Of a DNA stretch of 64,000 nt, positions 12,272-51,470 are shown in pieces. Position numbers and translations under genes: made by a program. The notes under the pieces are model-generated. The model was not told where the DNA came from, made no database searches, and saw only the letters and a program-made list of their open reading frames with translations. The DNA is from an uncultured Spirochaetaceae bacterium (GTDB lineage Bacteria > Spirochaetota > Spirochaetia > Sphaerochaetales > Sphaerochaetaceae): contig CALXMP010000003.1 in assembly GCA_944389505.1 (NCBI GenBank), forward strand, positions 1 through 64,000, in the 5' to 3' direction. Every line of letters begins with the position of its first letter. The stretch's first letter is position 1.

Positions 12272-12275
12272 AAAA

Positions 12276-12290
12276 CGGAACAAAGTTTCA
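12276..12290. promoter_or_regulatory. IclR/KdgR-like operator, site 1
   Basis: CGGAACAAAGTTTCA, preceded by five A, is an imperfect palindrome almost identical to the sites at 31218 and 47057. It ends 7 bp upstream of the -35 of the SDR gene. Confidence 0.6.
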
Positions 12291-12297
12291 TTTCTTC

Positions 12298-12326: not shown

Positions 12327-12372
12327 CTATAAAGTCCGGGTCTTATAGACCAGCAGGCAGGAGGTATTGCAT

Positions 12373-13158
12373 ATGGAAATGAAGGATTTCTCCCTTGAGG
12401 GAAAGGTCGCATGGGTAACCGGTGCATCATATGGTATTGGCTTTGCTATCGCATCCGCATTCGCAACAGCCGGTGCAAAGATTGTTTTCAATGATATCAA
12501 GCAGGAGCTTGTGGACAAGGGCATTGCTGCATATAAGGAAGAAGGCATTGAAGCGAAGGGCTATGTCTGTGATGTGACAAATGAGGCCCAGGTTCAGGCA
12601 ACAACAGAAGAGATCATCAAGGAGTTCGGCAAGATCGATATCCTCGTGAACAATGCAGGTATCATCAAGAGAATCCCTATGTGCGAGATGAAGGCAGAGG
12701 AGTTCCGCCAGGTCATCGATGTTGATCTCAATGCTCCTTTCATCGTTTCCAAGGCAGTCATTCCTGGAATGATCAAGCAGGGACATGGAAAGATCATCAA
12801 CATCTGCTCCATGATGTCTGAGCTCGGAAGAGAGACTGTAAGCGCATACGCAGCTGCTAAGGGCGGTCTGAAGATGCTTACAAGGAACATCGCTTCTGAA
12901 TACGGCGAGTATAACATCCAGTGCAATGGAATTGGACCTGGATATATCGAGACGCCTCAGACAGCACCTCTCAGGGTTCCTGGCAATCCGTTCAATGAAT
13001 TCATCCTTGCAAAGACGCCTGCTCACAGATGGGGCAAGACTTCAGATCTGCAGGGACCTGCTGTATTCCTTGCATCCGATGCATCTAACTTCGTCAATGG
13101 ACATATCCTCTATGTCGATGGCGGAATCCTTGCATATATCGGAAAGCAGCCACAGTAA
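12373..13158 (+). CDS. short-chain dehydrogenase, gluconate 5-dehydrogenase/KduD-like
   Basis: The 261-residue Rossmann SDR has TGASYGIG (nucleotide binding), NNAG, a catalytic serine in ICSMMS and the YAAAK catalytic pair. The end, FLASDASNFVNGHILYVDGGILA, closely resembles gluconate 5-dehydrogenase/KduD-type enzymes found in uronate loci, which act on keto-sugar acids such as 2,5-diketo-3-deoxygluconate with NAD(P)H. The ATG at 12373 follows AGGAGG by 8 nt. An IclR-like operator and a promoter sit upstream and an intrinsic terminator follows. KduI, its usual partner, is not in the window. Confidence 0.85.
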   Translation: MEMKDFSLEGKVAWVTGASYGIGFAIASAFATAGAKIVFNDIKQELVDKGIAAYKEEGIEAKGYVCDVTNEAQVQATTEEIIKEFGKIDILVNNAGIIKRIPMCEMKAEEFRQVIDVDLNAPFIVSKAVIPGMIKQGHGKIINICSMMSELGRETVSAYAAAKGGLKMLTRNIASEYGEYNIQCNGIGPGYIETPQTAPLRVPGNPFNEFILAKTPAHRWGKTSDLQGPAVFLASDASNFVNGHILYVDGGILAYIGKQPQ

Positions 13159-30199: not shown

Positions 30200-31162
30200 T
30201 TACTTTATGAAGTGGACAGCGAAGCCACCGATTTCCTCGTTGACGTAGAAGACCTTCATCCTGCCTTTTGCATCATAGGATACGGTCTCTTCATTGATTG
30301 TGAAGCCCTTGTTCTTGAGGAAATAAGCTGTTCTCTCGAGATCATAGCACCTGAAAGCGAGGTGGCCGTTCTTTCCGAGATAGTTCTTCTTCATGACCTC
30401 GATCTCCTTGTTCATGAAGATGGAGCTGTTGCCGTTCTTGATCTCAAGCCCAAGCTTTGCGAACTCATCAGCAACTCCTGCAGCTGCATCAGCATCGGGG
30501 AGGTTGATTCCAACATGTGCGAGCTGGATTCCCTGAAGCTTGACAGTTGCTTCCTTGCAGAGCCTTGTGATCTCTTCCCAGTTCTCATTCTCGATGAGGT
30601 CTGCCTTTACCATCCATGAACCTCCGATAGCGAGGACGTTTGATGCCTTCGCATAGTCAGGGAGGTTGTTCGGATTGATTCCGCCTGTTGTCATGAATCT
30701 GACCTGTGAGAATGGGCCAGAGAGGTCCTTGAGCATTGCGACACCACCAGAAGCCTCAGCTGGGAAGAACTTGAGGACATTGAGTCCCATCGAAAGTCCC
30801 ATCTCAATCTCAGAAGGTGTGCATACGCCAGGAACGACAGGGATGTTGTGCGAAAGACACCATGCAACAGTGTCCTTGTTGAAACCTGCGGATACGATGA
30901 ACTTCGCACCTGCTGCCACAGCCTTCTCTGCAAGCTGCGGATTGATTACAGTTCCAGCTCCGACAACCATCTTCGGGAAAGCGGCTGTGACCTTCCTGAT
31001 TGCTTCCTCTGCCGCAGCTGTCCTGAATGTGATCTCTGCGGAGTTGATGCCTCCATCAATCATTGCTTTTGCAAGCGGTACGGCCTTCTCGGCATCATCG
31101 ATCTTCACGACAGGTACGATTCCTGAGTCATGGAAGAATGTGTAAAGTTCATCTTTTGTCAT
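30200..31162 (-). CDS. eda: KDPG/KHG aldolase fused to a VOC-like domain
   Basis: A 320-residue fusion. Residues 1-205 are a full Eda aldolase: EITFRT with Glu43, VGAGTV, and the Schiff-base Lys131 in LKFFPAEA. It cleaves 2-keto-3-deoxy-6-phosphogluconate to pyruvate and glyceraldehyde-3-P. Residues of about 212-320 form one vicinal-oxygen-chelate (glyoxalase-like) module starting LAHVGINLPDADAA and containing GHLAFRCYDLERTAYFL. The tail's role is unknown. The start has GGAGAG about 9 nt upstream, and a shared operator separates it from divergent kdgK. Confidence 0.92.
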   Translation of the reverse strand: MTKDELYTFFHDSGIVPVVKIDDAEKAVPLAKAMIDGGINSAEITFRTAAAEEAIRKVTAAFPKMVVGAGTVINPQLAEKAVAAGAKFIVSAGFNKDTVAWCLSHNIPVVPGVCTPSEIEMGLSMGLNVLKFFPAEASGGVAMLKDLSGPFSQVRFMTTGGINPNNLPDYAKASNVLAIGGSWMVKADLIENENWEEITRLCKEATVKLQGIQLAHVGINLPDADAAAGVADEFAKLGLEIKNGNSSIFMNKEIEVMKKNYLGKNGHLAFRCYDLERTAYFLKNKGFTINEETVSYDAKGRMKVFYVNEEIGGFAVHFIK

Positions 31163-31217
31163 AAGAAATACTCTCCTTTCTTTCTTAATGCTTATATTAT
31201 CATACGATATTCAAAAA

Positions 31218-31232
31218 TGGAACAATGTTCCA
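31218..31232. promoter_or_regulatory. IclR/KdgR-like operator, site 2 (kdgK/eda)
   Basis: TGGAACAATGTTCCA is a perfect palindrome with a central A, preceded by AAAAA. It abuts the kdgK -35 and overlaps the -35 region of divergent eda. It resembles KdgR-type (IclR family) boxes. Confidence 0.7.
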
Positions 31233-31260
31233 TTGACAATACCGCACTTCGTTGTACAAT
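31233..31260 (+). promoter_or_regulatory. kdgK promoter
   Basis: TTGACA (31233-31238), 16 bp, TACAAT (31255-31260), immediately next to the palindromic operator. Confidence 0.75.
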
Positions 31261-31304: not shown

Positions 31305-32336
31305 ATGTCAAGATATGTAACTTTCGGCGAAATCATGCTTCGCCTCAGGAGCCAGGAGCTCTATCGCCTTTTCCAGACACCTTCTCTGGAAGCGACTTTC
31401 GGTGGCGGTGAGGCCAATGTAGCAGTATCCCTCTCCATTTTTGGCGAGGATGCAGCATTCGTTACAGCTCTTCCGGAGAATGCAGTGGGTGAGGCTGCCG
31501 AGAGAGAGCTTCTCAAGTATGGTGTCGATACTTCATGCATCAAGAAGGTGAAGGGCGGCAGGCTTGGAATCTACTTCCTTGAGACCGGTGCTAACCAGAG
31601 ACCTTCCCTTGTTGTATATGACAGGGATAACTCAGCTATCGCAAAGGCTGTTCCTGCAGACTTCGATTTCGATGCTATCATGAAGGGTGCCAACTGGTTC
31701 CATACAACAGGTATCACACCTGCAGTAAGCCAGGGTGCAGCGGACTGCGCGCTTGAGGCTATGAAGGCTGCAAAGAAGGCTGGCGCTACCGTCTCCATCG
31801 ATCTTAACTACAGGAAGAAGCTCTGGAACTACGGAAAGAAGGCTCCAGAGGTTATGAGAGAACTTGTGAAGTATGCTGATGTCATCATCGCAAACGAAGA
31901 GGATATCCAGAAGTGCCTTGGTATCGAGGCTGATAGCGATGTAACATCCGGCAAGCTTGATACAAAGGTATATGAGGAGCTCGCAGCAAAGGTAAAGGCT
32001 CAGTTCCCGAATGTATCGGTTGTTGCAATCACCCTCCGTGAGTCAAAGAGCGCAGATCACAATGGATGGTCAGCAGCTCTCTCCGGCAAGACTGGTTTCT
32101 ACCTTTCCCGCCACTATGAGATCACGGATATCGTTGACAGAGTCGGCGGCGGAGACAGCTTCGCAGCAGGTATCATCTATGCTCTCTCCCATTTCGAGGA
32201 TGAGCAGTACTGCATCAACTTCGCAGTTGCTGCATCCTGTCTCAAGCACTCCATCAGCGGAGACTTCAACCTCTCAAGGCTTTCAGAGGTCAAGGCTCTC
32301 TGCGAGGGTGACGGATCAGGCCGCGTACAGCGCTGA
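31305..32336 (+). CDS. kdgK: 2-keto-3-deoxygluconate kinase (PfkB family)
   Basis: A 343-residue ribokinase-fold enzyme. FGGGEANVAVSLSIFG is the N-terminal PfkB signature and DRVGGGDSFAAGIIYAL holds the catalytic Asp and anion hole. SIDLNYRKKLW and the GRLGIYFLETGANQRPS substrate loop fit KDG kinases. It phosphorylates KDG to KDPG, the substrate of the divergent eda product, completing the UxaCBA route. TTGGAGG precedes the ATG. A terminator follows directly. Confidence 0.95.
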   Translation: MSRYVTFGEIMLRLRSQELYRLFQTPSLEATFGGGEANVAVSLSIFGEDAAFVTALPENAVGEAAERELLKYGVDTSCIKKVKGGRLGIYFLETGANQRPSLVVYDRDNSAIAKAVPADFDFDAIMKGANWFHTTGITPAVSQGAADCALEAMKAAKKAGATVSIDLNYRKKLWNYGKKAPEVMRELVKYADVIIANEEDIQKCLGIEADSDVTSGKLDTKVYEELAAKVKAQFPNVSVVAITLRESKSADHNGWSAALSGKTGFYLSRHYEITDIVDRVGGGDSFAAGIIYALSHFEDEQYCINFAVAASCLKHSISGDFNLSRLSEVKALCEGDGSGRVQR

Positions 32337-33178: not shown

Positions 33179-34741
33179 ATGAGCACTTCATCAGCTCAGA
33201 TGCTTATTTCGATGGTCCTGTATATGTGCGTGGTCATCGGCATAGGCGTCTATTTTGCAAAACGTGCAAATCAGAATAGCGATAACTACTACCTTGGCGG
33301 AAGATCACTGGGACCCTGGGTCGCAGCATTCAGCGCAGAGGCTTCGGATATGTCAGGATGGCTTCTCATGGGTCTTCCCGGTCTTGCTTACTGGTGCGGT
33401 CTTGCCGATGCATTCTGGACAGCTATCGGACTTGCGATCGGAACGTATATCAACTGGCTGCTTGTGGCTAAGCGTCTTCGCCGCTACTCGCATGTCGCAG
33501 GCAATTCAATAACGCTTCCTGAGTTCTTCAGCAACAGATTCCATGAGACGAAGAAGGTTATCCTTACGATTTCATCGCTCTTCATTCTCATATTCTTCTG
33601 CGTGTATGCTGCAAGCTGCTTCGTAACCTGCGGTAAGCTCTTCTCCTCCATCTTCGGCGCACCATATATACCGATGATGCTCTGCGGAGTCGCATTTGTT
33701 GTCATATATACATTCCTCGGTGGATTCCTTGCAGAGAGCACCAGTGATTTCATGCAGGCTATAATCATGGTTTTCGCACTTATCGTGGTGCTTGTTTCTG
33801 GAACGATCGCTGCAGGCGGCATGGGAGAGGTTCTTGAGAATATAAAGAATATCCCGGGATTCCTTGAGTTCTTCAATATCGCATCTCCTGCAGTGAATGA
33901 AGCAGGTGAGCAGATTGTAGAGAACGGAACTCCGCTCTTCAATGAAGCGCTTCCGTATCCACTCCTTTCCGTTGCATCGATGCTTGCATGGGGCCTTGGA
34001 TACTTCGGCATGCCTCAGGTTCTTCTGAGATTTATGGCTATCAGGAGATCTGATGAGCTTACGAAGAGCCGCCGTGTTGCTACAGTATGGGTTCTCATCT
34101 CCCTTCTTGCTGCTGTCACAATCGGTCTTGTCGGAAGGGCATTCGCGCCAACAGCCTTTGTTACGAAGTCATCAGCTGAGAATATCTTCTCATACCTTGC
34201 AAGCATGCTTATGCATCCGCTCTTTGCAGGTCTTGTCATGGCAGGAATCCTTGCAGCGACAATCAGCTCATCAGATTCCTATCTGCTTATCGCAGCATCG
34301 GCTTTCTCGAAGAATCTCTTCCAGGGAGTATTCCATACAAAGGCCAATGATAAGCAGGTCATGGTTGTATCGCGTGTGACTCTGATTGTAATCGCTCTCA
34401 TCGGTTCTCTTATCGCTCTTGATGAGAACAGCGTCATCTTCACAATCGTAAGCTTCGCATGGGCGGGCTTCGGCGCAACATTCGGACCATTGATGCTCTT
34501 CTCCCTCTTCTGGAAGAGGACAACAAGGGCTGGAGCTATTGCTGGCATGCTCTCTGGCGGAGCGATGGTCTTCATCTGGAACTACCTTGTAAAGCCGCTC
34601 GGCGGCATGTTCGGAATCTATGAGCTCCTCCCGGCTTTCATCGTTTCCTGCATTTTCATCGTAGTCGTATCGCTCATCACGAAAACTCCTGACAAGGAAA
34701 TCCTTGATGAGTTCGAGCTTGCAAAGACATTTGAGTGCTGA
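33179..34741 (+). CDS. putP: sodium/solute symporter, PutP (sodium/proline) type
   Basis: A 520-residue SSS-family transporter with about 13 membrane segments. YYLGGRSLGPWVAAFSAEASDMSGWLLMGLPG and the IAGMLSGGAMVFIW region are characteristic of the sodium/proline symporter PutP. The N-terminal segments carry the conserved Na-site residues of the ASDMSGWL helix. Proline is the best guess, but its position after pectin genes leaves a sugar-acid substrate possible. It is coupled to the UPF0303 gene by a one-base overlap (TGATG). Confidence 0.88.
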   Translation: MSTSSAQMLISMVLYMCVVIGIGVYFAKRANQNSDNYYLGGRSLGPWVAAFSAEASDMSGWLLMGLPGLAYWCGLADAFWTAIGLAIGTYINWLLVAKRLRRYSHVAGNSITLPEFFSNRFHETKKVILTISSLFILIFFCVYAASCFVTCGKLFSSIFGAPYIPMMLCGVAFVVIYTFLGGFLAESTSDFMQAIIMVFALIVVLVSGTIAAGGMGEVLENIKNIPGFLEFFNIASPAVNEAGEQIVENGTPLFNEALPYPLLSVASMLAWGLGYFGMPQVLLRFMAIRRSDELTKSRRVATVWVLISLLAAVTIGLVGRAFAPTAFVTKSSAENIFSYLASMLMHPLFAGLVMAGILAATISSSDSYLLIAASAFSKNLFQGVFHTKANDKQVMVVSRVTLIVIALIGSLIALDENSVIFTIVSFAWAGFGATFGPLMLFSLFWKRTTRAGAIAGMLSGGAMVFIWNYLVKPLGGMFGIYELLPAFIVSCIFIVVVSLITKTPDKEILDEFELAKTFEC

Positions 34742-40879: not shown

Positions 40880-41644
40880 TTAGTCACAGAACCCGAGTAT
40901 CGAGGAGATCTCGCAGGCAGTCTCTGAAACGAGGGATGCATTCTTGTCGAGATCCTCCCTGCTGAAGCGGAAGACAGGCCATGATGCTGATATCGCAGCG
41001 ACAGCCTTGCCCGAGTAGTCCCTTATAGGAGAAGCGATGCAGACAATATTCTCCTCATGCTCCTCCCTGTCGATAGCCCATCCTCTGCTATGTATCTCCT
41101 TTAGCTCAGCCCTGAGCCCGGATTCATCAAGGGATTTCGGGGTGAATGGCTTTAGAGTATGGGTCGAAAGGTAGCCATCAAGCTCCTCATCGCTCATTTC
41201 GGAGAGGAATACCTTGCCGATAGCCGTGCAGTATAGCGGGATGATTTTCCCAACCCGGGAATACATCCTAAGCGTGTAGCTCGATTCCTCCTTGAGGACA
41301 TATACAGCCTCGTCATCCTCAAGGATTCCCATATGAACTGTCTCTCCAAGCTCCTGCGAGAGCTTCTTTGCAAAAGGCTTCGCAGTAGAGACAAGATCGA
41401 TATGGGAAAGAGACCTCGACCCGACCATGAACATCTTCAGCGTAAGATGGTACTGATCGGCCGAGTCGCGGTATACGTAGCCAAGCGAGATAAGAGAGGA
41501 GAGGAACCTCAGAAGCGTAGCTTTCGGTAGCGCAGTCATTTTAGCCATGTTCTCAAGATTTATTGCTTCTGCCTTAGACAGCGTTTCAAGAATCAGCATG
41601 GTGCGCTCCACCGCGCTCATTCTGTTTTCGTCATCCCTCTCCAT
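40880..41644 (-). CDS. IclR family transcriptional regulator (uxa operon)
   Basis: A 254-residue IclR protein with an N-terminal winged helix (VERTMLILETLSKAEAINLENMAKMTALPKATLLRFLSSLISLGYV) and a C-terminal ligand domain (YCTAIGKVFLSEMSDEE, CIASPIRDYSGKAVAAISASWP). IclR proteins often sense sugar acids; KdgR is the best-known uronate example. It lies 16 bp downstream of uxaC and is probably transcribed from the promoter before the SBF gene, whose operator it may bind. Confidence 0.92.
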   Translation of the reverse strand: MERDDENRMSAVERTMLILETLSKAEAINLENMAKMTALPKATLLRFLSSLISLGYVYRDSADQYHLTLKMFMVGSRSLSHIDLVSTAKPFAKKLSQELGETVHMGILEDDEAVYVLKEESSYTLRMYSRVGKIIPLYCTAIGKVFLSEMSDEELDGYLSTHTLKPFTPKSLDESGLRAELKEIHSRGWAIDREEHEENIVCIASPIRDYSGKAVAAISASWPVFRFSREDLDKNASLVSETACEISSILGFCD

Positions 41645-41660: not shown

Positions 41661-43064
41661 TCAGCCTTCGAAGTACTTCTGTGCGTTGTTGAACGATATG
41701 TTCCTTACCATCTCACCGAGGTTGTCGATATCAGCAGGGAACTCTCCATTCTCTACCCAGTTTCCGATCACGTTGCAGAGTATGCGTCTGAAATACTCGT
41801 GGCGTGAGTAGGAGAGGAAGGATCTTGAATCGGTGAGCATACCGATGAATGCCGGAAGAACGCCAACATTTGCAAGAACCTTGATCTGCTCCTCCATTCC
41901 ATCTTTGTGATCGCAGAACCACCATGCGGAGCCAAGCTGCATCTTTCCCTTGATTCCACCGCCCTGATAGCATCCCATAAGAGTTGCGAGCGTGTAGTAA
42001 TCCTTAGGATTGAGGGTATAGAAGATTGTCTTAGGTACTTCATCTGTCTCAGAGAGAGCACCGAAGAACATTGAGATGCCTTCTGCCAGCTCCTTGTCAT
42101 GCGATGCATCGTAGCCTGTATCCGGTCCGAGAAGACGGAACATCGTCTTGTTGTTGTCCCTGATTGAGGCAAAGTGGCACTGGAATGCGACATTGTTCTT
42201 GTTGTATGCGCGGGCAAGAGCCGAAAGGACGAATGTCCTGTATGCATCTGCCTCTTCTGCTGTCACAGCGCTTCCATCCATCCTCTTCTGGAATACAGCA
42301 TTGACCTTCGATGCTTCCCAGAATGTGTGCGGGCATGTGACAAGTGCATGGTCGGATGCTCTGCAGCCCATCTCCACGAAGAACTCGAGTCTCTTCTCAA
42401 GAGCCTTGATGACATCCTCTGCGCTCTTGATCTCAATGCCAGCAGCTGCGCTGAGTTTTGCGATATACTCTGCGAAGTCAGGCTTCTCGATGTTCAGAGC
42501 CTTGTCAGGGCGATAGGAAGGAATAACCTTTGCAGGGCACTTTCCATCTGCCTTGATAATCTTGTGATACTTGAGATCATCAGCTGGATCATCCGTCGTT
42601 CCTACTGCGTATACCTTGAATTTCTTCATGATACCGAAGACGGAGAGCTCAGGATTGGACTTGAACTGCTCGTTAGCCTCGTCATAGATCTTCTTTGCAT
42701 TCTTCCTGCAGAGGATATCGTTGATGCCGAAATATCTCTGGAGCTCAAGGTGTGTCCAGTGATACAGCGGATTGCCGATGAGATTCTCCATCGTCTCTGC
42801 CCATGCGAGGAACTTGTCATATGGATCCGCATCGCCTGTGATGAGCTTCTCATCAAAGCCGCATGCTCTCATCATTCTCCACTTATAGTGGTCGCCGCCG
42901 AGCCAAGCATCAGTGATGGTTGTGAACCTCTTATCTGATGCAATCTGCTCCGGGATGAGATGGCAATGATAATCGAATATCTGAGCATCTGCAGCATATT
43001 CATGATACAGAGTCTTCGCTGTTCCGGTTTCCAGAAGGAAATCCTTATCCATAAATGGTTTCAT
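41661..43064 (-). CDS. uxaC: glucuronate/galacturonate isomerase
   Basis: A 467-residue UxaC: MKPFMDKDFLLETGTAKTLYHEYAADAQIFDYHCHLIPEQIA has the zinc-binding HCH motif, and TTDDPADDLKYH and DSRSFLSYSRHEYFRRILCNVIG are conserved. It converts D-galacturonate to D-tagaturonate (and glucuronate to fructuronate), the first step of the pathway encoded here. It overlaps uxaA by 4 bp. Confidence 0.97.
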   Translation of the reverse strand: MKPFMDKDFLLETGTAKTLYHEYAADAQIFDYHCHLIPEQIASDKRFTTITDAWLGGDHYKWRMMRACGFDEKLITGDADPYDKFLAWAETMENLIGNPLYHWTHLELQRYFGINDILCRKNAKKIYDEANEQFKSNPELSVFGIMKKFKVYAVGTTDDPADDLKYHKIIKADGKCPAKVIPSYRPDKALNIEKPDFAEYIAKLSAAAGIEIKSAEDVIKALEKRLEFFVEMGCRASDHALVTCPHTFWEASKVNAVFQKRMDGSAVTAEEADAYRTFVLSALARAYNKNNVAFQCHFASIRDNNKTMFRLLGPDTGYDASHDKELAEGISMFFGALSETDEVPKTIFYTLNPKDYYTLATLMGCYQGGGIKGKMQLGSAWWFCDHKDGMEEQIKVLANVGVLPAFIGMLTDSRSFLSYSRHEYFRRILCNVIGNWVENGEFPADIDNLGEMVRNISFNNAQKYFEG

Positions 43065-44575
43065 AGTACAACACCATCCTTGAATATCGAGATCTCGGAA
43101 TAGCCGTTGATCTCGTTCTTCGTATGCTCTTCCCCATCAGCGACACTGATGATGAACTTGATAAGATCGTCCGTTACCTTTCCCGGATCTTCTGTAAGCA
43201 TCGGAGATGCATCGAAGTCGATCCAGTCCTTCTTGTGAAGCGCCAGATTGTGGTTTGTGGCAATCTTAACCGTTGGTACAGGAGCGCCAAGCGGAGTTCC
43301 GCGTCCCGTTGTGAAGAGAATCATGTGGGCACCTGCAGCTGTCATGTCTGTTGTGGACACGATATCATTGCCGGGACCGGAGAGCAGAGTGAGTCCTGGT
43401 TCAGAGACTCTGTCTCCATAGCCAAGGACCGATGTTACAGGAGCTCTTCCTCCCTTCTGCACGCATCCAAGGCTCTTGTCCTCCAGCGTAGATATTCCAC
43501 CAGCTTTGTTGCCTGGTGAAGGATTCTCATACACAACCTGTCCATGTGCGGTGAAGTAGTGCTTGAAATCCTGGACCATCTTCACTGTCTTATTGAAGAT
43601 TTCCTCTGTCACAGCCCTGTTCATAAGCATCTGCTCAGCTCCGAACATCTCCGGAACCTCTGTAAGGATGCCTGTTCCGCCCATTGCCGTGAGGGCATTG
43701 CAGAAATGACCTACGAGAGGATTTGCCGTAATGCCGGAAAGACCATCCGAGCCGCCGCATTTGAATCCAACGACAAGATTGGACATCGGAACCGATTCCC
43801 TTCTGTCTGCCTTCATCGTCTCTGCGATCTCGCTCATGAGCTTCTTCGCATCGGCAATCTCATCCTCGGACTCCTGGGCTACAAGGAATTTCACCCTTGA
43901 GCTATCAACAGGTCCGAGAAGCTCCTTGAAGGAATCCATCGTGTTGTTCTCGCATCCAAGGCCGAGCACAAGCACGCCACCGGCATTTGGATGATGTACG
44001 AGATCTGCGAGAATCTTCCTTGTGTTCTCGTGATCTCCACCCATCTGCGAACAGCCGAACGGATGGATCCATGCATGGACCCCATCCTCGATTCCAAGCG
44101 TTTCATTTCCCCATGCTTCAAGCTTCTCAGCTATGCGGTTGACGCAGCCAACGGTGGGAACAATCCAGAGAGCATTGCGGATGCCTATCTTCCCGTTCTG
44201 CCTCTTGTATGCCTTGATCATAGGCACATGATCCTTCCATCTTGCCCTGTCTACCTCGGCTTCTCTCATGGCCTCTTCAGCCTGGGCTCTGTCATACGTA
44301 TACTCAGCATCCTCAGAGAGCAAGGTGTGGATATTGAACGCATGGACATGCTGTCCCTTTTCTATATCCTCCTTGGCCGCTCCGATAGGGTAGCCGTACT
44401 TGATGATCTTCTCCTCCTTCTTTATATCCGAAAGGGCAACCTTGTGCCCTCCGGGGATATCAGAGAAGATCGTGAATGTATCTCCGTCGACAGTCACAAC
44501 ATCGCCTTTGAAGAGCGGCTCGAGAGCTACTGCAACATTATCGCGGGGATTGATCCTGATCAGTTTTCTTGCCAT
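43061..44575 (-). CDS. uxaA: altronate dehydratase
   Basis: A 504-residue UxaA: an N-terminal SAF domain (LIRINPRDNVAVALEPLFKGD, PGGHKVALSDI), then a dehydratase domain with RNALWIVPTVGCVNR, HPFGCSQMGGDHENT, VVGFKCGGSDGLSGITANPLVG and ENPSPGNKAGGISTLEDKSLGC. It dehydrates D-altronate to 2-keto-3-deoxygluconate using iron/manganese. A second, paralogous enzyme (GarD type) is encoded at 54487. It is spaced 3 bp from uxaB. Confidence 0.97.
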   Translation of the reverse strand: MARKLIRINPRDNVAVALEPLFKGDVVTVDGDTFTIFSDIPGGHKVALSDIKKEEKIIKYGYPIGAAKEDIEKGQHVHAFNIHTLLSEDAEYTYDRAQAEEAMREAEVDRARWKDHVPMIKAYKRQNGKIGIRNALWIVPTVGCVNRIAEKLEAWGNETLGIEDGVHAWIHPFGCSQMGGDHENTRKILADLVHHPNAGGVLVLGLGCENNTMDSFKELLGPVDSSRVKFLVAQESEDEIADAKKLMSEIAETMKADRRESVPMSNLVVGFKCGGSDGLSGITANPLVGHFCNALTAMGGTGILTEVPEMFGAEQMLMNRAVTEEIFNKTVKMVQDFKHYFTAHGQVVYENPSPGNKAGGISTLEDKSLGCVQKGGRAPVTSVLGYGDRVSEPGLTLLSGPGNDIVSTTDMTAAGAHMILFTTGRGTPLGAPVPTVKIATNHNLALHKKDWIDFDASPMLTEDPGKVTDDLIKFIISVADGEEHTKNEINGYSEISIFKDGVVL

Positions 44576-44578
44576 AAA

Positions 44579-46057
44579 TCAGAGACTCCTGATGGTTTCT
44601 GTCATTCCCTTTGTCCAGATGGACTCGAGGTAGGAAGCTACCTTGTCCTCAAGACCTGCAACTGCAGTGAGATCCTCTCCCCACCATGCAGACTCGGAAA
44701 GAACAGCCTTTGCGATAGCTTTTCCCTTCTCAGCTGCGTCCTTGTAGGATGCCTTGTAGAGGGAAGCGAACTTCTCAAGAACCTCAGGGCTGTCGCTGAT
44801 GAGGTACTTCTCACCATTCCTGCTACCCTTGAGCGATGTGCCCTCATACTCTGTTCCCTCATAGAAGCTGATCAGAGCTGCAAGAGAGAATGAAAGGACT
44901 GTCGGGAGCTTGCCATTCTTCTTTACATAGCCGAGAAGCGATGGAAGGTCACGTGTCTTGAACTTCGATACGCTGTTGAGGGAGATAGAGAGAAGAAGGT
45001 GGACGATATACGGGTTAGCGAATCTCTCAAGAACGTCACCTGCATACTCCTCAAGCTGCTTCTTGTCGCCATCCATTGATGGGATGATTTCCTCGAAGAG
45101 GCCTCTCTTCATCATCGGGAAGATGAGATCGGACTTGATGCATTCCTCGACTGTGTTGAGACCTGTCTGGTATGCTGCAAGAACGGACATCGTATGGGCA
45201 CCATTGAGGATGCGGACCTTCCTTGTCCTGTAGAATGACATATCATCGGTCCAGATGACGTTTACGCCAGCAGCTGCTGTCGGTAGCTCGTCCTCATGTG
45301 TCTTTCCATGGCACTCGATGACCCAGAGAAGGAAGATCTCTGCGCTGTCGAGGAGGTTGTCCTTGTATCCGAGCTTCTCGCAGATTGCATCTGCCTCAGC
45401 TCTTGGGTATCCCGGAACGATTCTGTCAACAAGGCTGTTGCAGAAATCACAGGCATTCTCGAGCCAGTCGATGAAGCCCTTCTCAAGACCCCACTCGTTG
45501 GAATACTGGAGAACGATTCTCTTGAGATTGTCGCCATTCTTGTCGATGAGCTCACATGGGATTGCGATGATTCCCTTAGATGCGTCGCCGTTGAAGTGCT
45601 TGTATCTTCTGTAGAGGAAAGCTGCTACCTTGCCAGGATATGAGACCTGCGGCCTATCCTCAAGCTTGTCGCCCTCATGGTATGCGATACCAGCCTCTGT
45701 TGTATTGGATATGATGAATCTGAGGTCGGGATTCTCTGCCTGAGCAATGAATGCATCATAGTCCGAATATGGGTTGATGCATCCTGCAACGCTGGTGATC
45801 TTCCTGAATTCCTCAACAGGCTTTCCATTCTGTACACCTCTGAGAACAGTCGTGTAGAGACCCTTCTGCGTATTGATCATCTCTCCCATGCCGTTGGCAA
45901 GCGGCTGTACCATCATCACATCACCGTTGAAGCCACCCTTCTCATTGAGGATATCGATGATCCAGTCAACGAATGCCCTGAGGAAGTTTCCCTCACCGAA
46001 CTGAAGTACCTTTACAGGGCGCTGAGGCTTCTGTACCGTTTCCATGATTGTCTTCAT
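44579..46057 (-). CDS. uxaB: tagaturonate reductase (altronate oxidoreductase)
   Basis: A 492-residue polyol/mannitol-type dehydrogenase: VLQFGEGNFLRAFVDWIIDILNE is the NAD loop, VDRIVPGYPRA and VRILNGAHTMSVLAAYQTGL with the catalytic Lys/His region are conserved. It reduces tagaturonate to altronate with NADH. It sits between the transporter (4-bp overlap) and uxaA in transcription order. Confidence 0.96.
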   Translation of the reverse strand: MKTIMETVQKPQRPVKVLQFGEGNFLRAFVDWIIDILNEKGGFNGDVMMVQPLANGMGEMINTQKGLYTTVLRGVQNGKPVEEFRKITSVAGCINPYSDYDAFIAQAENPDLRFIISNTTEAGIAYHEGDKLEDRPQVSYPGKVAAFLYRRYKHFNGDASKGIIAIPCELIDKNGDNLKRIVLQYSNEWGLEKGFIDWLENACDFCNSLVDRIVPGYPRAEADAICEKLGYKDNLLDSAEIFLLWVIECHGKTHEDELPTAAAGVNVIWTDDMSFYRTRKVRILNGAHTMSVLAAYQTGLNTVEECIKSDLIFPMMKRGLFEEIIPSMDGDKKQLEEYAGDVLERFANPYIVHLLLSISLNSVSKFKTRDLPSLLGYVKKNGKLPTVLSFSLAALISFYEGTEYEGTSLKGSRNGEKYLISDSPEVLEKFASLYKASYKDAAEKGKAIAKAVLSESAWWGEDLTAVAGLEDKVASYLESIWTKGMTETIRSL

Positions 46058-47064
46058 ATGACGTCTCCTTTCCCTTGTGTGTTTTCCATTATATTCTTAT
46101 CCGGCTTGTTTCCGAAAAGGAAATGCGCCGAGATTGCCGTTGTTGTCTGCTGCAGCACGATTCCGGAGATTATCGGGATCAGCGAAGCAGGAGGAAAGAA
46201 CTGTATGGCGAGTACCATTGCTGCCGATATGTTCTTCATGCTTGATGCGAATGTGACCGAGACCGTATTCGCATGATCCAGTCTGGTAAGCCTTGCGATG
46301 GTCCTCGATATGATGAATCCAAGAACTGTGAAGCAGAATGCCGCAAGCGCCTGCGGGATGTATGCGACCGATGCCGATGCGATGAGGTCATCTGCTATCT
46401 GGCTTGTGTTTATTATGACTACAAAGAGCAGACCTATCTTTGTGAATGGCTTGAGCACAGGTACAGCATGGTCCATGCAGTGTCCCTTTGTGATAGCATT
46501 TATGAGAATGCCTACCGCGGAGGGAATCACGACCATGTAAATAAGTGACAGCATCATTCCGGATGTATCGAATTCGATGTGCGATGATGCGAGAACCCTG
46601 ACTGTAAGCGGGACGGAGATAGGAGCAAGCATTGTTCCGATTACTATCAGCGTCAGCGAGAGTGCGTTGTTGCCGTTGTATATGCTTGACCATATGCAGC
46701 CTACGACCGCTGTTGGAATCGCATAGAGCAGGACGAACCCTGTTATAACATCACCATTGCCATGGAACAGCAGATTCGCCAGCCCTGTCATGATGCATGG
46801 CGTGATTATATATGTCGTAAGCAGGAAGATGAATATGGGTTTAGGCTTCCTGATTATCGCTCCGAAATCCTTTACGGTGACACCCATGCCGCTGACAAGC
46901 GTCAGGAATGCGAAGAGCGGTGTCACGAACGGTTTGCCATCTATGAAGAACCTCGCAGCGACAAGACCAAGGATCACACCAGTTGGTGTGAGCAGCGGCA
47001 TCATGCGCTCCAGCCATTTGTTGGCGGTTATGAGATTCTGTTCGACAGCTGAAAAACGGAACAT
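46054..47064 (-). CDS. bile acid:sodium symporter (SBF) family permease, candidate uronate transporter
   Basis: A 336-residue membrane protein with about nine to ten spans. MPLLTPTGVILGLV, LTLVSGMGVTVKDF, IPTAVVGCIWSSIYNGNNALS and SVTFASSMKNISAAMVLA are characteristic of the SBF/BASS family, which couples Na+ to organic anion uptake. It is the first gene of the uxaBAC operon, which suggests galacturonate import. The start at 47064 is favoured because a TTGACA-16-TAAACT promoter ends 6 nt before it; 47004 or 47001 (MMPLLTP) are alternatives. Confidence 0.85.
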   Translation of the reverse strand: MFRFSAVEQNLITANKWLERMMPLLTPTGVILGLVAARFFIDGKPFVTPLFAFLTLVSGMGVTVKDFGAIIRKPKPIFIFLLTTYIITPCIMTGLANLLFHGNGDVITGFVLLYAIPTAVVGCIWSSIYNGNNALSLTLIVIGTMLAPISVPLTVRVLASSHIEFDTSGMMLSLIYMVVIPSAVGILINAITKGHCMDHAVPVLKPFTKIGLLFVVIINTSQIADDLIASASVAYIPQALAAFCFTVLGFIISRTIARLTRLDHANTVSVTFASSMKNISAAMVLAIQFFPPASLIPIISGIVLQQTTTAISAHFLFGNKPDKNIMENTQGKGDVI

Positions 47065-47071
47065 AGTTTCA
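47057..47071. promoter_or_regulatory. IclR/KdgR-like operator, site 3 (SBF-uxaBAC operon)
   Basis: CGGAACATAGTTTCA with AAAAA in front, nearly identical to sites 1 and 2. It covers the region from the last base of the -10 through the start codon of the SBF gene, a repressor-like position. Confidence 0.68.
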
Positions 47072-47098
47072 GTTTAGTCCATTATGGCAATCTGTCAA
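47071..47098 (-). promoter_or_regulatory. promoter of the SBF-uxaBAC-iclR operon
   Basis: On the minus strand TTGACA (47093-47098), 16 bp, TAAACT (47071-47076), then 6 nt to the ATG at 47064. Confidence 0.6.
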
Positions 47099-47110
47099 AT
47101 ATATTTGCCA

Positions 47111-47139
47111 TTCATAGTGGAATTTCGGCACAATAAAAT
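47111..47139 (+). promoter_or_regulatory. predicted leaderless promoter of the hybrid AraC regulator
   Basis: TTCATA (47111-47116), 17 bp, TAAAAT (47134-47139), then 7 nt to the ATG at 47147. Confidence 0.45.
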
Positions 47140-47146
47140 CAGGAAA

Positions 47147-50119
47147 ATGGCAGAAAGAATAGGATTCATAACCTCGAACATATATCAGGGGACAAGCATT
47201 GCGATGTGGAAGGCTTTATCGGAAGTGTTCCGGTCTGTCTCCGACTGCTCTCTCTTCATTCTTCCCGGAGGCCGTCTCAACGCAGCTGATGACAGTGAGA
47301 ATATGCGTTCGATGATATACGATCTTGCCTGCAGAGGCTCTCTTGATGGAATCATAATATGGGCTTCTTCTCTGTCGGGCTTTGCCAGAAAGAGCGATAT
47401 CACAAGATTCGTCCGCGAGATTGCTGCGGATATACCTGCCGTTGTCGTAGGAATGGATGTTGAGGGGATTCCATCGGTTACATTCGATGACTACAGTGGG
47501 ATGAGGGCTCTTGTCAGCCATTTCATAGAGGTGCATGGAGAGAGGCGCATTGCATTCCTCCGCGGTCCCCGGAACCATGAAGGAGCAGAGGAGAGATACA
47601 GAGCATACTGTGACGCGCTGTCCATCCATGGCATATCGTTTGATGAAAGGCTTGTATCAGAGCCGCATGGATGGAATGATGGTGTCGGGGCAATCCGCGA
47701 TCTAACCGATTCAAGAGCCCTTGTGCCCGGACGGGATTTCACTGCTATCATTGCAGCCTCAGATCTTCTCCTTACATCCGCGGTCCTGCATCTTGAGAAG
47801 CAGGGGATAACTGTTCCAGATGACCTGAGAGCAGGTGGATTCAATGATACCGATGATAATCTTAGGCTTTCCACCGGACTTACTACAGTGCGTCTGCCAG
47901 TGGCAAGGATCATATCATCAGCGTACTCGATGCTGCGCGCTCTTATGGAAGGCAGGCCTGCAGAAAGCCAGTGCATCAGGACAGAGCTCGTGGTACGCAA
48001 TTCCTGCGGGTGCGTATCGGACAGGATGGCGGGGGAGCATGTGAATCCTTATGAAGGCGTTCAGCGTATTCTTTCATCCTGCGGCAGCCGAAGCGATCTC
48101 CATGAGAGCATTTCCGCTTTCATTGCCGCATCCGGGGATACCGATGTCCTTGTTGATGCTGTCATGAAACGTCCTGATGCGCTCATGCTCGGCCATGAGA
48201 TCACAAGGGAATACAGAAGGACGGAGGCAGAGCTGAGAAGCCGGGTGCGCAATGAAGGCCGGATCCTTGATGTCTTCAAGACGGGGCTGCTTGCTGCAAG
48301 ATCCTATGAGGCAATCCCTCCCATCATGCAGAAGAGTTTCCCCGATATAGGAATAAGGAACTGCTTCCTTGTTCTTCACAAAGAAGGACGCTCTGTCATG
48401 AGAGCCGGGTTCTCAGGCGGAATGCTCTATTCCACGCCGTGCTCATTTCCCGGGAGCATGATGCTTCCTGAATCGGTAAGCAGCCGGCTTGAGCAAGGAG
48501 TATACATAGTAGAGCCGCTGTTCTATGGAAGCTCGGAGCTTGGACATCTTGTCTTCTCGATGGAGAGCAATGTCAGCTATATCGCCGAGAATCTTCGTTC
48601 GTCATTCTCTGCTGCAGTCAGAGGCATAGAGCTCTTTGAGGAAGCTACCAGGATGAGGAAAGAAGCGGAGCGGAGCGAGAACGATGCCCAGATGTTCTAC
48701 TCCAAGCTATCCCAGGGTGTTCTTCAGCCGATTTCCGAGATGAGAGGGCTTCTTCTCTCAGAGGATATCGACAGGGAAAAGCTCTCGATGAAGCTCTCGG
48801 AGGCTGAGCATATACTCAGGCTGGCGCTTATGGAGCGCGCTGGATACTCTCCTGAGAAGAGACTCATACCATTCGGCCATATGGTCCCCGTGCTGGAATC
48901 CATCGGATTCAGACTGGATCTCCCTCAGGATCTTCCATCGTTCGAGATTGACAAGAAAGCATTCGCAGAGATGATGCATCTCATAAAAGCGTGGGGAGAC
49001 CGGGGCAATGGATATCTGGATGATAGAGGTCTCAGGCTTTCAATCAGCATAGGAGAGGAAGGGGAAGGAAGTCCTTCGCTTATTCTTGCGGAGCGTATTG
49101 CATTCTTCTCTTCTTATGGATTCACGATAGAGGGCGGCAGACTTGTCATATCCATTCCATATCCACGGCTTTCTGATGGATCATCGCCAGAAGGAAGATC
49201 TGGGATTCTTTTTCTCAGAGGTGATTCCACAGATGATATCCCTGATGCGATAGCAAGTCTCGCCTCTCTGGATAATCCGCATCCCAGAACCATAGCATGG
49301 CGCTATGGCGATGTTCCTTCATCGCTTATAGAGGGATATAAGGATTCATATATGGCCTGCTTTTCGCTCGGGAAGGAAGCTGTATCGCTTGAAGCGGTAT
49401 TGTTCCCAGATAATCTTGTCCTTGTTTATGGGGATATCGAGCTGCCGGCATCGATTGCCGGGAGGATAATCAAGATACATTCCCGGGAGGAGTCGCTGAA
49501 AGCAGGTGCTGTCTCTGCCATAATCCTCTGTGGTGTGGATGTTCAGGATGCACTCTGGTTCAGAGCTGAAGTGGCTTTTGCCTCAGTTCCCATCATTTAT
49601 ATTAAAGACAGATTCCAGATGGAGGAGGCTGAGGTTCTTTCCTCTGCGCCTTCAATGCTGATGCTGAATCCCTCTGTTTTCGCTTCTTCCGATGCGGTGA
49701 AGCGGCTTTCCGGGATAATCAATGGCGATGATATGCTTCCTGCGTTCACTGCCTCACCGGTCAGGAGAGCCATCGCATACATGAACGGTAAATCGGGATC
49801 GGTCATATCGCGCTGGCAGGTTGCAGAGGCAGCTGGCGTGAATGAGGACTATCTTACACGCATATTCCATAGGGAGATCGGAGTCTCACCATGGGAGTAT
49901 CTCAGCCTTTACCGAGTCCATGCTGCAAAGGAGCTTCTCATTTCAACAGCGCTCCCTGTCCGCGATATAGCCGCAGAGACAGGATTCCAGGATCCTGCAT
50001 ATTTCTCCCGGGTCTTCAGGAAGGCTGCAGGGATGTCTCCCGGAGATTTCAGGAAGCTTCATGTACAGGACCCCAGAAGAGCTTTCAAGCATGAAATATG
50101 TTTGACAGATGAAGCATAA
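47147..50119 (+). CDS. hybrid LacI-sensor/AraC-type transcriptional regulator with GAF and degenerate kinase/receiver-like parts
   Basis: A 990-residue regulator. Residues 1-290 match a LacI/ribose-binding sensor (IGFITSNIYQG, ALVSHFIEVHGERRIAFLRGPRNHEGAEERYRAYCDAL, DLRAGGFNDTDDN). A GAF-like part follows at about 375-500, then a helical stretch resembling a histidine-kinase dimerisation region without an obvious catalytic His, a degenerate receiver-like part (about 780-860), and a C-terminal AraC double HTH (about 885-980; EDYLTRIFHREIGVSPWEYL, AAETGFQDPAYFSRVFRKAAG). It is divergent from the uxa operon and precedes GH105, so it probably activates pectin genes. Start at 47147, not 47084, because the sensor begins there. 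Confidence 0.82.
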   Translation: MAERIGFITSNIYQGTSIAMWKALSEVFRSVSDCSLFILPGGRLNAADDSENMRSMIYDLACRGSLDGIIIWASSLSGFARKSDITRFVREIAADIPAVVVGMDVEGIPSVTFDDYSGMRALVSHFIEVHGERRIAFLRGPRNHEGAEERYRAYCDALSIHGISFDERLVSEPHGWNDGVGAIRDLTDSRALVPGRDFTAIIAASDLLLTSAVLHLEKQGITVPDDLRAGGFNDTDDNLRLSTGLTTVRLPVARIISSAYSMLRALMEGRPAESQCIRTELVVRNSCGCVSDRMAGEHVNPYEGVQRILSSCGSRSDLHESISAFIAASGDTDVLVDAVMKRPDALMLGHEITREYRRTEAELRSRVRNEGRILDVFKTGLLAARSYEAIPPIMQKSFPDIGIRNCFLVLHKEGRSVMRAGFSGGMLYSTPCSFPGSMMLPESVSSRLEQGVYIVEPLFYGSSELGHLVFSMESNVSYIAENLRSSFSAAVRGIELFEEATRMRKEAERSENDAQMFYSKLSQGVLQPISEMRGLLLSEDIDREKLSMKLSEAEHILRLALMERAGYSPEKRLIPFGHMVPVLESIGFRLDLPQDLPSFEIDKKAFAEMMHLIKAWGDRGNGYLDDRGLRLSISIGEEGEGSPSLILAERIAFFSSYGFTIEGGRLVISIPYPRLSDGSSPEGRSGILFLRGDSTDDIPDAIASLASLDNPHPRTIAWRYGDVPSSLIEGYKDSYMACFSLGKEAVSLEAVLFPDNLVLVYGDIELPASIAGRIIKIHSREESLKAGAVSAIILCGVDVQDALWFRAEVAFASVPIIYIKDRFQMEEAEVLSSAPSMLMLNPSVFASSDAVKRLSGIINGDDMLPAFTASPVRRAIAYMNGKSGSVISRWQVAEAAGVNEDYLTRIFHREIGVSPWEYLSLYRVHAAKELLISTALPVRDIAAETGFQDPAYFSRVFRKAAGMSPGDFRKLHVQDPRRAFKHEICLTDEA

Positions 50120-50270: not shown

Positions 50271-51470
50271 ATGGTTTTCGATCTCTATTTCAAGCAGTAT
50301 ACGAAGTGGTTCGCTTCATATGACAGGAACACATGGAATTACGAGGATGCCTGTGTGATCATAGGCCTCAGGGAGCTTTATTCCTCTACAGGCGATAAAG
50401 TCTGGTGGGATGCTGTGAAGGCTTTCTACGGCAGATATATCAATGAGGATGGTACTATCAGGCTCTATGATGAGTCGGAGTACAATCTTGACAGGATTCC
50501 TGGAGGAAGGGCACTTTTCGATCTTCTGAAGGAAACAGGTGAGGAGAAGTACAGAAAGGCTATCGAAGCGCTTGCTGGTCAGATGAAGAGGCAGCCAAGG
50601 GCTAAGTGCGGCAGCTTCTGGCATAAGAATATCTATCCGAATCAGATCTGGCTTGATGGGCTCTATATGGGTCTTCCGTTCTATATGCTCTATGCGAACC
50701 TTACAGGGGATGCATCGATCTATGATGATGTTGTCAGGCAGTTCAAGAATGCCAGGGAGCATATCTTCGACGAGGAGAAGAAGATCTACTACCATGCCTG
50801 GGATGAGAGCCGCTCGATCTTCTGGTGCGATAAGGAGACCGGACTTTCTGCCAATTTCTGGTCCAGAGCGCTTGGCTGGTATCTTATGGCGCTTGCTGAT
50901 GTATATGAGTACATGCCGGAGAGCAGAAAAGAGGACCGCGAGACGATTGCCAGCATCTGGAAGGAAGCCATGGATGGAATGCTGCTTTACCAGGATAAGG
51001 AGAGCGGTATGTTCTATCAGCTTACGGCTCTTGGAAAGACTGTCGAGGGCAATTATCTTGAGACGAGTTCTTCCATGATGGTCGCATACAGTCTCTTCAA
51101 GGGAGCTCTTCTCGGAGTCTTCAAGGATGAGCACTATATCGATGCCGCTATATCGGCTCTCCTGGGAACAGCTATCCAGAAGTTCACATTCGTCAATGGA
51201 AAGCTCTCCCTGGGCGGTATGTGCAAGGGCGCAGGGCTTGGTCCAGATGGAAACTTCAAGAGGGATGGCAGCGTCGCCTATTACCTTGCAGAGGAGGTCG
51301 TTGCCGATGAGCAGAAAGGTACCGGTGTCTCGATGCTTGCCTATGCAGAGTATATAAAGGCGGCAAAGGCAGGACTTATTCCCGATTCATTCCCGCACGT
51401 TGAGCTATTCAAGCGCAATTACGATCCAATCCTCCCGACGGATCCTGGATTCAAAGCCACGATGAATTGA
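50271..51470 (+). CDS. GH105 unsaturated rhamnogalacturonyl/galacturonyl hydrolase
   Basis: A 399-residue (alpha/alpha)6 enzyme of family GH105 (YteR/YesR-like): RPRAKCGSFWHKNIYPNQIWLDGLYMGLPFYMLYANL carries the catalytic Asp region, and GLSANFWSRALGWYLMALADV and ETSSSMMVAYSLFKGA are conserved. It hydrates and cleaves the 4,5-unsaturated uronic acid left by pectin lyases. There is no signal peptide. AAGGAG lies 7 nt before the ATG; a terminator follows. Confidence 0.95.
   Translation: MVFDLYFKQYTKWFASYDRNTWNYEDACVIIGLRELYSSTGDKVWWDAVKAFYGRYINEDGTIRLYDESEYNLDRIPGGRALFDLLKETGEEKYRKAIEALAGQMKRQPRAKCGSFWHKNIYPNQIWLDGLYMGLPFYMLYANLTGDASIYDDVVRQFKNAREHIFDEEKKIYYHAWDESRSIFWCDKETGLSANFWSRALGWYLMALADVYEYMPESRKEDRETIASIWKEAMDGMLLYQDKESGMFYQLTALGKTVEGNYLETSSSMMVAYSLFKGALLGVFKDEHYIDAAISALLGTAIQKFTFVNGKLSLGGMCKGAGLGPDGNFKRDGSVAYYLAEEVVADEQKGTGVSMLAYAEYIKAAKAGLIPDSFPHVELFKRNYDPILPTDPGFKATMN

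Follow-up and report, generated by a model that had tools for sequence, protein, structure and literature searches.

The locus examined here raises the question of which carrier brings hexuronate into a cell whose uronate operon is headed by a permease of the bile acid:sodium symporter (SBF or BASS) family. The window (the whole stretch of DNA analyzed, 64,000 nucleotides) comes from the 2.1-Mb genome of a gut spirochaete. The permease gene, located at 46054-47064 on the minus strand, is an intact ORF of 336 aa and the sole PF01758 match in the genome, with an E-value of 2e-24 and 86.7 bits against the Pfam SBF cut-off of 24.3. It is followed on the same strand by genes for tagaturonate reductase (uxaB, 44579-46057; NF002969, 640 bits, cut-off 359), altronate dehydratase (uxaA, 43061-44575; GD_AH altronate/galactarate dehydratase family), uronate isomerase (uxaC, 41661-43064; UxaC PF02614, 1e-196), and an IclR-family regulator (40880-41644), which is KdgR-like by profile matches and scores 202 against the KdgR equivalog cut-off of 275, i.e., below it. 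The identities of UxaB and UxaC are firm, while UxaA is assigned only to the level of the GD_AH dehydratase family. ORF, gene order, and profile matches agree with the proposal of an earlier note that the permease is the head gene of an operon SBF-uxaB-uxaA-uxaC-iclR. As for the 4-bp overlaps also reported there, two of the four junctions have them, SBF/uxaB (46054-46057) and uxaA/uxaC (43061-43064), and the other two have gaps of 3 bp (uxaB-uxaA) and 16 bp (uxaC-iclR). A divergent pectin block contains a GH88/GH105-type unsaturated uronyl hydrolase by family match (50271-51470, plus strand). An ORF on the plus strand at 47084-50119 encodes an AraC-type regulator with a fused periplasmic-binding-protein-like domain; its start overlaps the SBF promoter, and the true start is probably 47147.

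The shared IclR-type operator suggested previously is borne out by a KdgR/IclR-type site, CTGAAACTATGTTCCGT, a 17-bp palindrome-like sequence that spans the SBF start codon (47056-47072, minus strand). A second site, the palindrome ATGGAACAATGTTCCAT (31217-31233), lies between the divergent genes for KDPG aldolase (kdgA-like, 30200-31162, minus strand) and a KDG kinase-like PfkB protein (kdgK-like, 31305-32336, plus strand), and a third, ACGGAACAAAGTTTCAT (12275-12291), is located upstream of a gluconate 5-dehydrogenase/KduD-like SDR gene (12367-13158, plus strand), all three genes being identified by profile matches. Since the SBF starts of relatives and also, in part, the SBF site of the window itself went into the operator profile, the kdgA/kdgK and KduD-like sites serve as the independent test. 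These three are the only strong matches in the 64-kb window. With the symmetrised profile they score 20-24, the next site in the 64 kb scores 13.4, and the 99th percentile for random 215-bp stretches is 8.7. From the operator common to SBF, kdgA/kdgK, and the KduD-like gene we infer that the permease and KDG metabolism belong to a single regulon, and on this point the evidence goes beyond that available to the earlier note.

A sigma-70-like promoter, TTGACA-N16-TAAACT (47071-47098, minus strand), ends 6 nt before the SBF ATG, which predicts a leaderless SBF message. The same layout of promoter and start recurs in the genus at every uxa-linked SBF gene but that at L098, as well as in several genomes from other genera of the family. 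The KdgR-like IclR protein would be expected to repress by occupying the -10 element and start codon of this predicted message. The arrangement resembles the KdgR regulon of pectin degraders, which also combines an IclR-family regulator with palindromes at KDG genes, of what we take to be the TGAAAC/GTTTCA type. Here, however, the site lies across the start codon of a transporter gene predicted to be leaderless, and the regulator falls under the KdgR equivalog cut-off. A further operator-like palindrome (score 17.8, L118:2235) lies just upstream of a gene for a 449-aa membrane protein with ~13 TM segments and no evident uronate link.

The earlier note named missing linkage to uxa genes in relatives as grounds for giving up its proposal; linkage holds in many of them. 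Relatives with identities of 97-62% have the same operon. In a phylum sample of 393 genomes, with the permease counted at E <= 1e-20, it is present in 27; it stands in a strand run with uxa genes in 12 of these and has a uxa neighbour in 2 more. Linkage occurs in 9 of the 16 permease-carrying genera of this sample, and a rough binomial estimate of the phylum linkage arising by chance is 1e-15. Within the genus, the permease occurs in 18 of 48 genomes and uxaB in 44 of 48; of the 18 carriers, 12 have SBF immediately upstream of uxaB and another 2 have it next to other uxa genes. On the tree, uxa-operon labels are clustered, requiring 8 changes compared with 12.7 in shuffles (3 of 500 shuffles were as low). 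The permease is unlinked in four genus genomes: in G331 and G422 it is located away from their own uxa operon, and G302 and G226 have homologues of 47-48% identity, with no uxaB or uxaC found in either genome. Membership in an operon and regulon of uronate catabolism, kept in relatives, is the context expected of a hexuronate importer, and the permease has it. An apparent SBF-UxaB fusion in G358 (L047:8657-11146, one 829-aa frame) was rejected: uxaB still has a ribosome site and an ATG of its own, and the two coding parts meet across a 9-A tract, so that a one-base indel or sequencing error probably explains the frame. At L046:8313-8717, in a single-contig genome, uxaB is seemingly truncated or disrupted (~134 aa), the rest of the uxa operon being intact.

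Sister operons that have no SBF gene retain the operator upstream of uxaB in 16 of 17 cases checked. In one of these genomes (G407), with a UxaB of 95% identity, the sequence separating the operator from uxaB (L102:5453-5680, minus strand) reads like both ends of SBF, giving FRFS..LI....WLE and, in another frame, LFGKRPERHIIKSIQGKGELI, the 3' reading having been made by eye; judged by these readings, it is an internally deleted SBF relic. Together, the kept operator and the relic make SBF look repeatedly lost in these sisters. Many SBF-less operons face a Bmp-type or BPD_transp_1-type ABC cassette (a subset of the cassettes was run against Pfam), and 2 cassettes are typed as having a substrate-binding protein, i.e., as import type, which would fit a swap of one transporter for another. 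ABC cassettes opposite uxa operons of SBF-less genomes were recorded at L066, L068, L070, L071, L073, L106, and L109. The binding protein in the tested L066 and L068 is Bmp/PnrA-like (nucleoside-type), and the cassette may represent an unexpected family of sugar-acid importer.

An AlphaFold2 model computed with 31 clade sequences (pLDDT 87.4) predicts helix breaks at 116-120 and 276-278, and the top Foldseek matches in the PDB are ASBT_Yf (E 1.5e-13) and also ASBT_NM, consistent with the BASS crossover fold. The likeness to ASBT_Yf, ASBT_NM, and PanS lies in this fold, in the broken crossover helices TM4 and TM9, and in the crossover/substrate Asn, which is retained (N278, equal to N265 of ASBT_NM). 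Sequence identity to these three proteins, in contrast, is 17-21%, and the operon partners here are uronate enzymes. The canonical Na1/Na2 ligand set was taken from ASBT_NM and includes S128, T132, E260, Q264, and Q77, which we presume to be ligands. Its other two members, S114 and N115, are confirmed as Na+ ligands in ASBT_NM (PMC10645422). Alignment of the permease with ASBT_Yf and PanS gives the replacements S114 to G122, N115 to C123, T132 to I140, E260 to A273, Q264 to K277, and Q77 to T84, and the sole retained ligand is S128 (S136 here), unlike the canonical Na+-coupled subgroup. Among 42 aligned clade members, most of the Na1/Na2 ligands are absent, the Glu is gone, and position 277, which corresponds to the Na2 Gln, is Lys or Arg in 41 and His in one. 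W125, K209, and Q305 are invariant in the 42 and Q306 is present in 41, whereas the residues of PanS and ASBT_Yf at positions 277, 125, 209, 305, and 306 are Q, M, a hydrophobic residue, H, and N, respectively. According to these alignments, the permease is a BASS member outside the Na+-ligand-bearing subgroup, and the earlier argument that the family's Na+/organic anion chemistry fits does not stand, most Na+ ligands being replaced throughout the clade. With its fixed positive charge, residue 277 could take the place of the ion at the former Na2 site and bind the carboxylate of the uronate. Plasmid relatives (~21-28% identity) were discarded as a functional guide, as each of the 5 aligned either retains the crossover residues in canonical form or does not have the signature. 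A Shinella plasmid SBF (L088:4056-7879) keeps the Na+ ligands and was not used as evidence for the clade, though it is beside uxuA. Its adjoining uxuA and mannitol-dehydrogenase family gene may represent an independent SBF-uronate linkage.

On balance, these observations favor an inner-membrane BASS-fold carrier that takes up free hexuronate, most likely pectin-derived D-galacturonate. A sugar-acid transporter role is well supported from context, galacturonate import being its most likely form, and the protein probably carries a hexuronate or another sugar acid without the canonical two Na+ ions. Of the original claim of a galacturonate importer, linkage and regulon uphold the uronate or sugar-acid transport role; the substrate is not pinned to galacturonate, given G411 (described below), G226, and G302. 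The carrier would be of the elevator type and would feed galacturonate to UxaC-UxaB-UxaA-KdgK-KdgA, with K277 and the invariant K209 holding the substrate carboxylate and with H+ or a metabolism-maintained gradient, rather than two bound Na+, as the presumed drive. Because the membrane potential would drive an anion uniporter outward, import has to rely on H+ coupling, on exchange, or on a steep gradient directed inward. The more specific proposal, a spirochaete BASS subfamily of Na+-independent hexuronate importers in which the Na+ sites were swapped for a Lys/Arg charge, an invariant Lys, and a Trp/Gln pocket, is plausible and is put forward tentatively. The presence of UxuA in the genome indicates that glucuronate use may occur too. 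Against uptake of free hexuronate, the pathway may instead be fed by ABC systems that take up oligogalacturonides, and the homologues in G226 and G302 without uxaB/uxaC, the unlinked genes of G331 and G422, and the pairing of SBF with only uxaA and iclR in G411 also count against it.

The last case bears on an unlikely though serious alternative, in which SBF imports one or several other six-carbon acids entering the pathway lower, e.g., D-altronate or tagaturonate, rather than galacturonate. G411 (L098) has SBF-uxaA-iclR, with uxaB and uxaC undetected, which makes related acids such as altronate possible substrates as well; this genome, however, is only a 93% complete MAG. SBF-uxaB-uxaA without a nearby uxaC (L053) and SBF with a UxaA-like dehydratase (G417, L101, where the start of UxaC is at the contig edge) point the same way. 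In contrast, L036, L040, and L054 combine the permease with uxaC and have neither uxaA nor uxaB alongside; UxaC acts on uronates, and free altronate is rare in nature.

It is improbable that SBF instead exports uronate, KDG, or some other acid of the pathway, or serves as an overflow valve for it, in the manner of a PIN-type charge-driven uniporter. The loss of the Na+ sites would suit such a role, and PIN8, which has the same fold, exports a carboxylate and reportedly depends on neither a Na+ nor an H+ gradient (PMC9477730). The PIN auxin carriers share the superfamily fold and carry carboxylates, and the comparison concerns only the way they work: PIN8 is a plant exporter with inverted membrane orientation and negligible sequence similarity. 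Moreover, SBF heads a catabolic operon, and the ABC cassettes that often neighbor its SBF-less sisters include the 2 of import type.

Distinctly improbable, too, is a side role for SBF with another carrier as the galacturonate importer, either a TRAP system elsewhere or the SSS symporter at 33179-34741. The genome carries 3 TRAP systems, 5 MFS proteins, and 1 SSS protein; one TRAP system adjoins a galactonate-dehydratase-like gene, and the SSS gene is downstream of kdgK and an esterase gene. The SSS protein, however, passes the PutP sodium/proline equivalog (531 against 515.5) and was rejected as a uronate carrier, a strong operator was sought and not found in the 3 TRAP loci (best scores 9.8-11.0, compared with 20-24 at the regulon sites), and none of the 5 MFS proteins of the whole genome exceeds an NCBIfam sugar-acid transporter cut-off. 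At L113:5812-12393, a likely sugar-acid locus, a galactonate-dehydratase-like enolase and a nickel-pincer isomerase (NPN group 22) accompany a TRAP transporter.

Finally, a conventional PanS-like symporter that moves pantoate or a comparable anion with Na+ and stands in the operon incidentally would agree with the fold and with the best solved relatives being BASS proteins, but is very improbable given 65.9 bits against the PanS equivalog cut-off of 400 (NF047939), the different Na+ ligands and pocket residues, the repeated linkage, and the shared operator. The ACR3 arsenite carrier model TIGR00832 likewise gives 50.6 bits against a cut-off of 282.8.

Returning to hexuronate import as the preferred reading, hexuronate or galacturonate is not known as a substrate of the bile-acid carrier family, and a search of openly licensed papers found no earlier SBF-uronate report. 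ExuT (MFS) and the TRAP and ABC systems of uronate uptake share with this permease the presumed physiological slot by uxa genes and belong to unrelated protein families. As for annotation, the results argue against the label "bile acid:sodium symporter" for these genes. If the reading is true, both the substrate class and the coupling mode would be new for bacterial BASS members, and a bacterial BASS fold would seemingly have given up its two Na+ sites and gained a fixed positive charge in exchange, making the ions' role in substrate binding testable by comparison. Uronate uptake, which pectin use by gut spirochaetes requires, would also gain a further transporter family.
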